Shown here piece by piece: positions 9,631 to 38,606 of a stretch of DNA of 64,000 nucleotides. Source of the DNA: Acidilobaceae archaeon (GTDB lineage: Archaea > Thermoproteota > Thermoprotei_A > Sulfolobales > Acidilobaceae); contig JALVZQ010000003.1 of assembly GCA_027037535.1 (NCBI GenBank), forward strand, positions 268,890 to 332,889, read 5' to 3'. Under the pieces are notes generated by a model. That model had not been told where the DNA came from. It searched no databases and saw only the letters and a program-made list of their open reading frames with translations. Each line of letters opens with the position of its first letter. The first letter of the stretch is position 1. The position numbers and the translations under genes were made by a program.

Positions 9631-10449
9631 TCATTCTATTGGTTCTTTGCTGTGTCTCACGTGTTCCTGTCCCGGGAATACTCCTTCTTTAACGTCTTTA
9701 ATGTATTCTTTTACGGCGTCTAGGATTATTTGTTTCAAGTTAACATATCTTTTTGCGAATGGAGGCGTATGATCATATAGTCCTAGTAGGTCATGGTATA
9801 CTAGTACTTGGCCGTCGCAGTATCTTCCACTTCCTATACATATTGTTGGAATATCAAGTTTTTCCGTTATCATCTTGGCGGTCTCCTCGGCGGTGAACTC
9901 GATTACTATGCTGAATGCTCCTGCTTCTTGGAGTGCTAGAGCGTCTTGGAGGAGTTCCTGGGCTTCTTGTCTACGTTTTCCTTGCAGCTTGTATCCTCCG
10001 AGCCTGAGGTATCTCTGGGGGGTCAGGCCTATATGCCCCATAACCGGGATACCAGCGTTAATTATTGCCTTTACGCGGTCAGCGTATTCTGTTCCCCCTT
10101 CAAGTTTTACGGCGTCCGCTCCTGCCTTGACAAAAGCTACAGCAGACTCTACTGCTTTTTGGGTACTGGGCTCGTATGTTCCGAAGGGCATGTCTCCTAC
10201 TATCATTGCGGATGGCTCGGCCCGGGCAACGGCCATTGTATGGCGTATCATATCCTCTAGGCTCACGGTATGGGTGGATTTCATTCCCAGGACGACCATT
10301 CCTAGGCTATCGCCTACGAGTATAATGTCTACTCCTGCCTCATCGACTATTAAAGCGCTTGGATAATCGTAGGCTGTTATCATAACTATTTTCTCATTGT
10401 TTCGTTTCTTTTTTAGAATGTGTTTGATTGTTACTTTTTCTTTGCGCAA
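9631..10449 (-). CDS. panB: 3-methyl-2-oxobutanoate hydroxymethyltransferase
   Basis: A 272-residue ketopantoate hydroxymethyltransferase that adds a hydroxymethyl group from methylene-tetrahydropterin (or its archaeal equivalent) to 2-oxoisovalerate, the first step to pantoate and coenzyme A. Motifs visible: ITAYDYPSALIVDEAG, the metal-binding VGDSLGMVVLG, MPFGTYEPS, KLEGG and GHIGLTPQ. Length is standard. It is the second gene of a panE-panB operon, overlapping panE by 19 nt, so the two consecutive pantoate steps are translationally coupled. Confidence 0.96.
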   Translation of the reverse strand: MRKEKVTIKHILKKKRNNEKIVMITAYDYPSALIVDEAGVDIILVGDSLGMVVLGMKSTHTVSLEDMIRHTMAVARAEPSAMIVGDMPFGTYEPSTQKAVESAVAFVKAGADAVKLEGGTEYADRVKAIINAGIPVMGHIGLTPQRYLRLGGYKLQGKRRQEAQELLQDALALQEAGAFSIVIEFTAEETAKMITEKLDIPTICIGSGRYCDGQVLVYHDLLGLYDHTPPFAKRYVNLKQIILDAVKEYIKDVKEGVFPGQEHVRHSKEPIE

Positions 10450-11384
10450 CGTAGTCTCCCCTCTTCCAATGCTTTAACAAGGATATATAGGTCTTCTATA
10501 GTATTAGCATCAATGCCTGTTTCCCTCGAGTACTCGAGGAGGACGCCAAGAATAGAATCTATCTCTGTCTGTTTACATGCTCTCAGATCTTGAAGCATGC
10601 TGGAAACATTCTTACCCGTTCTCCTAGCAAGTTCTAGAACATAATTGTATAGATCATCGTATACAAGGCCAACATTTTTTGCTCTAGAGAGCTTGACGAT
10701 CTCCTGCAGAACCTTCTCAGCTATTCTCCTAGCCCAGCTATTTTCTGCTATAATAATATTCTCCCAGTCTAGTATTGACGTAATAGTATTAATAACTGCG
10801 TTGGCCGCGGTTTTCCTCCACCGATAATATGATATATTATCGGTACAGCGGCTCTTTAACCCTCCTTGCACTAGGATCCTCGATAATATGCACTCTGGAG
10901 AATTCTCTGCGATGGGGGCATCTCTTCCAAGTAAAAGTTCTCCATGGCCTCTTATCTCATAGAGGATATCAGAAATCCTTGTGACTCCATAATCTGATAC
11001 AATAAAGAATGGGTTCAAGCCATACTTTCTGGCTTCTCTCCCCCCGGCTAATCCATTAACTAGAACTCCGATAGAATCTCTTGAATTCACTAGCTTTGAG
11101 GCAGTCTCCAATGCGTCAGGAAGATCATATGATTTCACAGATACTACAACTATATTACAAGAAGTCCTCCCAGAAGACACATTATAACGAATAGGTATTA
11201 CTGGAACATAGTGGTACACGTCCTGGAGAGCATCATATAGTCTGAGTTTGTTTCTAGAGAGAGCCTCTGCATGGCTTTCTCTTCGAACTATGCAGGGAAC
11301 CGGGTTTCCCATAGCACGATATATTGCATTTGCAAGGAGTGATCCCATCGAACCGCATCCGACTATGCAAATGTCGAATGTTAT
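10431..11384 (-). CDS. panE: 2-dehydropantoate 2-reductase, probable non-canonical ATA start
   Basis: A ketopantoate reductase (PanE/ApbA family) that reduces ketopantoate to pantoate with NAD(P)H. The nucleotide-binding motif CIVGCGSMGSLLANA spans the first ATG (11348), so an ATG start would delete the Rossmann loop. Between the upstream in-frame TGA and the motif there is no ATG, GTG or TTG. An in-frame ATA at 11384 lies exactly 6 nt after GGTGA, the spacing used by neighbouring canonical starts, and gives a 317-residue protein starting TFDICIVGCG after the initiator. Later features fit the family, including the VVSVKSYD segment and the helical C-terminal domain. Downstream panB overlaps by 19 nt. 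A sequence error in the codon is the alternative. Confidence 0.85.
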   Translation of the reverse strand: MTFDICIVGCGSMGSLLANAIYRAMGNPVPCIVRRESHAEALSRNKLRLYDALQDVYHYVPVIPIRYNVSSGRTSCNIVVVSVKSYDLPDALETASKLVNSRDSIGVLVNGLAGGREARKYGLNPFFIVSDYGVTRISDILYEIRGHGELLLGRDAPIAENSPECILSRILVQGGLKSRCTDNISYYRWRKTAANAVINTITSILDWENIIIAENSWARRIAEKVLQEIVKLSRAKNVGLVYDDLYNYVLELARRTGKNVSSMLQDLRACKQTEIDSILGVLLEYSRETGIDANTIEDLYILVKALEEGRLRCAKKK

Positions 11385-11403
11385 AACTAATCACCCTATC
11401 ATC

Positions 11404-36771: not shown

Positions 36772-36938
36772 CTTGTCTGCTCACCCCAGTTCGATAGGTA
36801 TCCTGTGGCGAGTGCTACGAGTGATATGGTTACGTAGTATATGTATAGTCCCCATCCCGTGGGGTGTTCACTGTATAGGGGTAGGTACATGAGTAGTAGG
36901 AGTACCAGGTAGATTATTGCAAGTGTTTTTCTGTTCAT
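36768..36938 (-). CDS. Small two-helix membrane partner of the symporter (56 aa)
   Basis: A 56-residue protein with two hydrophobic helices (LAIIYLVLLLLMYLPLY and YYVTISLVALATGYL), encoded directly before the symporter with a 4-nt overlap (ATGA-like). Small DUF3311/DUF4212-like subunits commonly accompany SSS-family transporters. An ATG at 36938 with GGTG 8 nt upstream is chosen; a longer reading frame upstream is cysteine- and leucine-rich without a start signal and runs across the palindrome, so I reject it. Confidence 0.7.
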   Translation of the reverse strand: MNRKTLAIIYLVLLLLMYLPLYSEHPTGWGLYIYYVTISLVALATGYLSNWGEQTR

Positions 36939-36954
36939 TACCGATACACCGAGT

Positions 36955-36970
36955 GGAAACAATTGTTTCC
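36955..36970. promoter_or_regulatory. Perfect 16-bp palindrome between symporter operon and regulator
   Basis: GGAAACAATTGTTTCC lies in the 65-nt divergent promoter. The TATA-like CTATATAAATA next to it (36976-36986) is 18-28 nt before the regulator ATG at 37004, fitting a leaderless transcript, and also reads as a TATA box toward the symporter, whose mRNA would then begin at or beside the palindrome. This suits repression of the symporter and autoregulation by the adjacent winged-helix protein. Confidence 0.7.
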
Positions 36971-37003
36971 AAATCCTATATAAATAACAAAGCAACAATA
37001 ATA

Positions 37004-37990
37004 ATGAATCAGGATACAGTCTTGACACAAAAAACCCATCGAACAGAATACACCATTCTAAAACACCTAATAGACCACGGCCCACTAAGCATAAACGAGC
37101 TAGCAGAAAAAACAGGCTACAACAGAACATGGATATGGAAAAAACTACGCGAACTAGAGAAGAAAGGACTAGTAAAACTCTCAAAGAAGGGAAGAATACT
37201 AATAGCAGATTACAAAGAGCCAGTAAAAGAACCCCAAGTAATAATCCTAGGAATCCTCAGAGCAGCAGAATACCCCTACATACTAGACTTCCACAAACGC
37301 CTACAAAAGAAATGGAACACAATAATCAAGATATACGACGACGCATACACGCTTGCCATGCACCTCGCAACAGGCAGAGTACACCTTGCAATGAATCCAT
37401 CAGTCACACTACTCCTAGCGCACAGAATAAGTGGAGGAAAAGTGTTCATAGCAGGAGGAGGAAGCGGTGGAGGAGCAGGCATAATAGAAAATCCCCGCGG
37501 CAGAGAAGGCCACACAACGACTATGGCCTCCTCAATGGAGTACTGTGCAGTAAAGGAACGCCTCCCAGGTCCACGCATCTATGCTAGAGGAGGAGACGAG
37601 ATAATAGAAAACGTATCGAGAGGAATAACACGATACGGTGTAGTCTGGGAACCATACCTAGGACTAGCACAAGCCAAAGGTCTCAGAACAAGAGCATGCG
37701 ACCTACCAGTATGCTGTCTACTAGGAATACACGACAGCATGATACACCACGTAGACAAGCTAAAAAGACTATTCGCGTACAGTGTAGAAAAAATAGCCAA
37801 GAGACTCGACAGCCCAGTCCTAATAGACTCCTATTCAAACCTCATAGGTCTACCCAGAGACCTTGTAAAGAGGGCAATCCTATCATATAGGTATTACCCT
37901 GAGACACCATACGATGTTCTCCAAAACAACGCTCAATTGATAAGGGAGACACTAGTACCATTCGACTTGGTGAGAAGAGCTGTCATCTAG
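37004..37990 (+). CDS. Winged-helix regulator fused to a substrate-binding-like domain
   Basis: A 328-residue protein. Residues 8-65 are a winged helix (PLSINELAEKTGYNRTWIWK and LRELEKKGLVKLSKKGRIL). Residues 75-320 resemble type 2 periplasmic binding proteins of the nitrate/sulfonate/thiamine-precursor kind: VIILGILRAAEYPYILDF, GRVHLAMNPS, the glycine-rich IAGGGSGGGAGII and YGVVWEPYLGLAQAKG. It lacks a signal peptide, so it is a cytoplasmic one-component sensor. It is divergent from the symporter operon across the palindrome. The downstream HAD gene overlaps its end by 11 nt when the CTG start is used. Confidence 0.8.
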   Translation: MNQDTVLTQKTHRTEYTILKHLIDHGPLSINELAEKTGYNRTWIWKKLRELEKKGLVKLSKKGRILIADYKEPVKEPQVIILGILRAAEYPYILDFHKRLQKKWNTIIKIYDDAYTLAMHLATGRVHLAMNPSVTLLLAHRISGGKVFIAGGGSGGGAGIIENPRGREGHTTTMASSMEYCAVKERLPGPRIYARGGDEIIENVSRGITRYGVVWEPYLGLAQAKGLRTRACDLPVCCLLGIHDSMIHHVDKLKRLFAYSVEKIAKRLDSPVLIDSYSNLIGLPRDLVKRAILSYRYYPETPYDVLQNNAQLIRETLVPFDLVRRAVI

Positions 37991-38606
37991 AAAGCCCTGT
38001 ATAGAACTAGTACTATTCGACCTAGACGGCACCATAATAGACACTATGGACGAATATGCTGAGGCCGTAGCCGACATTGTATCACCAGTACTGGGCCTTG
38101 ATAAAGAAACTGTGAGGCAGAAATACTTGTCGTTGAGCGGTAGACCGTTCAGAGAACAATTAAGACTGATGGGGGTTCCACCCGATAAAATAGAAGAGCT
38201 AGCCGTGGAATTCGAGAGAAGAAAAATAGAGATACTTAACAAGTACTATCCCGAGAAAATAGTGTGGGAACGAATAAACAAGTTGAAGAAATACGGTATA
38301 CGGACGGCAGTGTCAACGAACAATGAATGTCATCTTGTAGAAAGGATACCATGGATGAATCAGCTCTTTGACATAGTTCTCTGCTATGATCCTATTAAAG
38401 GACTATCAAAGGGAGAACCACATCTTTCTAGGCTGGAAGAACTGGGATACATCCGGGAGAAAACGGTGTTTGTAGGGGACAGCAAGTATGATCTCGAGGT
38501 GTACGCTCCTTATGGGGTGAAATCAGTGAAGACCGTAGGTTTGTGGAGACAGGATGATAACGTAATTGATACAATATTAAGATTAGCTTCTGAATGCAAT
38601 AAGTAA
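37980..38606 (+). CDS. HAD-family phosphatase, probable non-canonical CTG start
   Basis: A HAD-superfamily hydrolase. Motif I LVLFDLDGTIIDT lies upstream of the first ATG (38046), so that start would remove the nucleophile aspartate. No ATG, GTG or TTG exists between the preceding in-frame TGA and motif I. A CTG at 37980 follows GGTGA by exactly 6 nt and gives 208 residues, normal for the family; an ATA just before LVLF is the other candidate. Motif II is AVSTNNECH, and motifs III/IV are the KGLSKGEPH lysine and VFVGDSKYDLEVY. The substrate is unknown (phosphoglycolate phosphatase-like). It overlaps the regulator gene by 11 nt. Confidence 0.85.
   Translation: MSSRKPCIELVLFDLDGTIIDTMDEYAEAVADIVSPVLGLDKETVRQKYLSLSGRPFREQLRLMGVPPDKIEELAVEFERRKIEILNKYYPEKIVWERINKLKKYGIRTAVSTNNECHLVERIPWMNQLFDIVLCYDPIKGLSKGEPHLSRLEELGYIREKTVFVGDSKYDLEVYAPYGVKSVKTVGLWRQDDNVIDTILRLASECNK

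Follow-up and report, generated by a model that had tools for sequence, protein, structure and literature searches.

Where translation of a HAD phosphatase gene begins is the question raised by this locus, which lies in a 64,000-nt stretch of DNA (the window, G000:C3:268890-332889) from an Acidilobaceae archaeon genome of 1.65 Mb in 8 contigs (G000). The reading frame of the gene is opened by the TGA at 37971-37973, itself part of a GGTGA motif, and it contains no ATG, GTG or TTG between this stop and position 38046. The sequence bears out the preliminary description on two points: the catalytic DLDGT motif is encoded upstream of the first ATG with no usual start after the in-frame TGA, and a CTG lies exactly 6 nt past GGTGA. 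The first codons of the frame are GAA GAG CTG TCA TCT AGA AAG CCC TGT ATA, and those following ATA 38004 are GAA CTA GTA CTA TTC GAC CTA GAC GGC ACC.

The protein itself is ordinary. Read from the CTG, it matches Pfam HAD_2 (PF13419) over its whole length with 61.3 bits (gathering cut-off 23.8) and carries the N-terminal DxD motif, as a HAD-like hydrolase does; no equivalog cut-off was reached by the product. The nearest solved structure is PDB 2nyv, a phosphoglycolate phosphatase, in which residue 3 aligns with residue 8 of the HAD product. A scan of the genome_contigs collection turned up only distant bacterial HADs. Compared with phosphoglycolate phosphatase-like HADs, DLDGT and HAD_2 are the same and the start codon alone is unusual. 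The upstream winged-HTH gene overlaps the proposed start by 11 nt.

Table 1. Positions of the genes, motifs and tRNA halves (window numbering unless a contig or locus is named).
Feature	Position	Strand	Basis or context
Upstream winged-HTH gene (stop-to-stop frame)	36893-37990 (TAG 37988-37990)	+	HTH_24 match; overlap kept in G002 and G004
GGTGA, Shine-Dalgarno (SD)-like motif	37969-37973	+	sequence; kept in G000, G002, G004
HAD open frame	37974-38606	+	sequence
CTG, proposed HAD start codon	37980-37982	+	6 nt past GGTGA stop; orthologue comparison; position statistics
HAD-like hydrolase CDS read from CTG, 208 aa	37980-38606	+	Pfam HAD_2; PDB 2nyv
DLDGT catalytic motif, upstream of first ATG	38022-38036	+	sequence; 2nyv comparison
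First in-frame ATG of HAD frame	38046-38048	+	downstream of DLDGT; start here would lose the nucleophile Asp
Ketopantoate reductase-like (ApbA/PanE) CDS	10431-11384	-	read from ATA 11384-11382; second putative non-canonical start in the window
GGTGA within GGTGAT, TGA as in-frame stop	11391-11395	-	6 nt upstream of ATA 11384
Trm10 methyltransferase	C7:184932		CTG at 6 nt past GGTGA stop
Dph2	C8:164943		ATA at 6 nt past GGTGA stop
Cmr4	G000:C3 147683-148650 (L035:7682-8650)		CTG in register behind GGAGGTG
Cas4-like ORF (weak likeness)	G000:C7 234562 (L176:14562-15170)	+	ATA-ATA after GGTGA
Initiator tRNA halves, G000	C7 58247 to 57006 (L167)	-	3' half 1.24 kb downstream, same strand
Initiator tRNA halves, G011	C5 117025/116453		3' half 0.57 kb downstream, same strand
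Initiator tRNA halves, G004	L052/L061		at contig ends

Orthologues of the HAD gene and rival readings

The gene was found in three genomes of one genus: the source genome, G002 and G004. The G004 orthologue (52% identity) reads GGTGA GGG ACG CTG TCG CCA, with the 6-nt spacing and without a usual start. The G002 orthologue (60% identity) reads GGTGA AGG ATG TCG TCA, with ATG one codon earlier and a spacing of 3 nt. The comparison with relatives that the preliminary description had proposed is favourable to its CUG reading: G004 keeps both the motif and CTG, and G002 keeps GGTGA with a usual start one codon earlier. Both arrangements fit initiation at this place and speak against a sequencing error.

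All three congeners share the overlap at the end of the winged-HTH gene (VRRAVI, VKDVVRA and VRDAVAR, each followed by the stop), and GGTGA is kept in each although the upstream protein reads LV, VV or TV at this place. There the motif is encoded by the third base of the Leu, Val or Thr codon, a GTG Val codon and the A of the next codon. The chances of GGTGA arising from codon usage are 0.016, 0.071 and 0.046 (codon usage of G004 stood in for G002), and because their product is about 5e-5 if they are independent, GGTGA itself appears to be selected in the overlap. In the upstream gene the CTG falls across two codons, GCT and GTC (Ala-Val), and the probability of GCT given Ala is 0.21-0.23. Its presence in two species is modest evidence alone, since the overlapping gene partly imposes it.

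A start at ATG 38046 would use the first usual start codon of the frame and yield a shortened protein. Such a protein would lack beta-strand 1 and the DLDGT nucleophile, the latter kept in all orthologues; this ATG has no SD, and protein conservation extends upstream of it, where 15 of 21 residues are the same as in G002. It is hardly credible as the start of the gene. A sequencing or assembly error that erased an ATG or GTG deserves just as little credence: the sequence comes from a single assembly, but the independent genome G004 shares the GGTGA-6nt-CTG arrangement and Dph2 shows the same kind of pattern in two genomes.

Production of the HAD domain as a fusion, by +1 frameshifting from the overlapping HTH gene, is only slightly less far-fetched. 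In all three congeners a +1 shift would lead from the overlapping gene into the HAD frame. However, the G002 gene carries an independent ATG after this GGTGA, which does not fit a fusion, HAD orthologues in other genera are free-standing with usual starts, and GGTGA is kept at the right place for HAD initiation; inspection of the aligned overlap by eye revealed no slippery site. Initiation at another non-canonical codon, for example ATA 38004, is the least improbable of these rivals and still very unlikely. That codon comes closest to where HAD proteins usually begin (Ile-Glu-Leu-Val-Leu-Phe-Asp), and ATA starts appear to be used elsewhere in G000, but it is replaced by CCT in G002 and CCG in G004 and has no SD in register. 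Judged by these comparisons, the HAD phosphatase very probably begins at CUG.

Start positions behind GGTGA stops

Where GGTGA serves as an in-frame stop, it sets the expected start position of the gene that follows. The G000 sample was the 864 kb taken by stretches, in which a simple codon-usage method called 694 genes, 66 of them opening after a GGTGA stop. In 49 of the 66 the codon exactly 6 nt past GGTGA is a usual start (31 ATG, 13 GTG, 5 TTG), and in a further 13 a usual start occurs among the first six codons. The remaining four all carry CTG (HAD, Trm10) or ATA (Dph2, ketopantoate reductase) at this position. The CTG of the HAD gene stands at the spacing of canonical genes in the same genome. 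Its placement is not chance, because 49/66 GGTGA-stop genes use exactly the same codon position and CTG makes up 0.9% of codons. The preliminary description had cited three canonical starts of the window for this spacing; 1626 and 29729 do follow GGTGA in this way, but 34297 follows GGTG, one base less.

The same count was applied to 694 kb of G004 and to 760 kb of G011, which belongs to a different genus. CTG or ATA stands at the expected position in 5 of 11 unexplained GGTGA-stop genes of G004 and in 1 of 3 of G011. Pooling the three genomes gives 10 such genes among the 18 unexplained ones, where 1.05 would be expected (P 1.3e-8); 5 have CTG (0.31 expected, P 1.1e-5) and 5 have ATA (0.74 expected, P 6e-4). 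At 11 other codon positions of the same genes CTG or ATA occurs in 10 of 198 cases. The two codons thus recur across separate genes and genomes more often than codon frequency predicts. When all SDs are taken in bulk, ATA is only weakly enriched in G000; the case was made by the strict GGTGA-stop test and by orthologues.

Protein family matches indicate that several of the CTG or ATA extensions are needed, since conserved domains would otherwise be cut. With the next usual codon as the start, acetate-CoA ligase of G004 would lose most of ACAS_N, a tubulin-like protein of G004 its first strand, and a nitroreductase and a DHH protein of G011 their N-termini. The G011 DHH gene is preceded by GAGGTGAT, not by a GGTGA stop.

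CTG and ATA starts in other genes

The preliminary description had counted three cases of this kind in the window, of which two were confirmed: the HAD gene and, on the minus strand, the ketopantoate reductase-like gene with ATA 11384. No other ORF of 60 aa or more in this stretch combines an SD-spaced CTG, ATA or ATT start with the lack of a usual start upstream. In the reductase gene the next usual start (ATG) falls within the GxGxxG motif. The G000 sequence ATA ACA TTC GAC ATT TGC ATA corresponds to ATG AAG GGT AGA GTC TGC ATA in G013, whose ATG aligns with the G000 ATA.

Dph2 reads GGTGA GAAGCA ATA ACA TGC AAT GAT ATC in G000 and GGTGA GGAACG ATA ACA TGC AAT GAT ATC in G003, where the protein is 92% identical. 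The spacers differ at 3 of 6 bases, whereas GGTGA and ATA are identical. The residue aligned to ATA is encoded by ATG in G010 and by TTG in G016. Trm10 has CTG in G000 and ATA in G002, each exactly 6 nt past GGTGA. In G008, a member of another genus, Trm10 (L259) has no usual start upstream of the conserved sequence and possibly begins at ACG or another codon. Cmr4 reads CTG TCA TCT AGT AAA in G000, TTG TCG AGC AAA in G001 and TTG TCA AGC AAG in G013. An in-frame TTG also occurs upstream of its SD, and CTGTCATCTAG is found exactly twice in the G000 genome, at the Cmr4 start and at the HAD start. The Cas4-like ORF of G000 runs for 136 codons before any usual start. Taken together, the alignments show a conserved SD-like motif and spacing, with a non-canonical codon at the putative start position and usual codons there in relatives.

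Other candidates were set aside. The tblastn candidates, in which alignment continued beyond the first usual start on its upstream side, were gone through singly and mostly showed stops in the frame of the relative or trivial extensions. Cbf5 (G000:C3 52089-53190, plus strand) is split over two frames, which fits the archaeal cbf5 intron (a pre-mRNA intron known in archaea, PMC2738675), and a ribbon-helix-helix gene (C3 252280) has a TTG start in both species. The Cbf5 split, the GGTGA-type SD and the archaeal initiator tRNA would fit a thermophilic crenarchaeon. ThyX (G000:C3 225974-226933, minus strand; L039:5974-6933) has no ATG, GTG or TTG in its first 76 codons and homology from codon 13. 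It was left out of the count because it has no CTG or ATA behind a convincing SD; three ATA codons without a clear SD are possible starts.

Frequency, initiation and comparison with known systems

The good cases in G000 are 5 of 694 called genes, or roughly 0.7% (HAD, Trm10, Dph2, ketopantoate reductase and Cmr4). From the survey of one family (G000, G004, G011), CUG and AUA starts would account for about 0.5-1% of genes, and in G000 for about 6% (4/66) of GGTGA-stop genes. The best explanation, in which confidence is high, is that the HAD gene starts at CUG 37980. It would be one case of the low-frequency CUG/AUA starts, each preceded by a well-spaced SD, that sequence statistics and orthologue comparison point to in this genus and in one or more further genera of the family. 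The lineage-specific CUG habit suggested in the preliminary description gains from the recurrence in several genes and genomes, but it must be described as rare and as including AUA. Use of the two codons appears to be a real, rare and minor habit of the lineage, broader than CUG.

At the HAD start GGUGA would pair with the 16S rRNA 3' end and so position the 30S subunit; an Rfam search of the G000 assembly found no 16S. Ribosomes terminating on the overlapping HTH gene 8-11 nt downstream would probably help initiation. The initiator Met-tRNA would decode CUG with a first-position mismatch, and the HAD protein would therefore start Met-Ser-Ser-Arg-Lys.

The initiator tRNA gene is broken after CTCATA in G000, G004 and G011. 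Complementary GC-rich 13-mers border the two halves (GGGGCTGTCGGCC and GGCCGACAGCCCC in G000), and with the 3' exon as read the 31:39 pair is non-Watson-Crick. The gap in G000 holds a 342-residue stop-to-stop frame with LAGLIDADG-like stretches seen by eye (GLFLTDGY, FSGIIEGDGYIG); a Pfam search of this frame gave no match. Contiguous initiator tRNA genes occur in G008, G014, G017 and G023. The interruption would be due to a giant intron or to splitting of the tRNA; split and permuted tRNAs are known in archaea, among them the permuted initiator tRNA of Thermofilum (PMC4090602). A correspondence between genomes without a contiguous GGGCTCATAACCC and those with CTG or ATA starts is insecure, as the 13-mer occurs in G002 together with an apparent ATA start in Trm10. 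The G002 13-mer could belong to an elongator tRNA. That start selection is relaxed in the family, with CUG and AUA as regular starts owing to changed initiation machinery, possibly the initiator tRNA, is unlikely, and a causal tie between the tRNA interruption and start-codon choice is speculation.

Archaeal initiation uses aIF1/aIF2 instead of IF3. If CUG and AUA starts are regular in the family, it would be a natural system for probing the determinants of archaeal start-codon stringency, a question that is testable because the orthologue series has ATA or CTG versus ATG or TTG at one residue. Regular use of CUG and AUA in the family would also mean that annotation truncates or misses conserved genes, some of them without their catalytic residues. 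Prodigal considers ATG, GTG and TTG only and ignores CTG, ATA and ATT (PMC2848648).

No report of recurrent CUG/AUA starts in a crenarchaeal family was found in a literature search that covered few subscription journals. Bacterial CUG/AUU/AUA starts (PMC5622118) are alike in that a near-cognate codon stands in a good SD context and is swapped with AUG or UUG between relatives; AUA starts are not mentioned in the text of that paper. CUG starts in prokaryotes are, however, vanishingly rare according to that survey, with 2 of 61,358 ancestral AUG codons having gone to CUG (Belinky, Rogozin and Koonin 2017, PMC5622118), whereas in the archaeal family studied here CUG and AUA appear to recur. Possible CUG starts in Haloferax volcanii comprise HVO_1510 (PMC8305020) and small proteins with CTG starts (PMC12482152). 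These too are archaeal genes without ATG, GTG or TTG upstream of conserved or mass-spectrometry-detected sequence, but they are isolated haloarchaeal cases, while those described here come from several genes and species, have matched SD spacing and include AUA. In Aeropyrum pernix, a thermophilic crenarchaeon with relaxed start choice behind SD motifs, TTG is used more than any other start (52%; Yamazaki 2006, cited in PMC5911459). ATG, GTG and TTG are the only starts reported there, whereas here ATG still dominates and CTG and ATA would be added.
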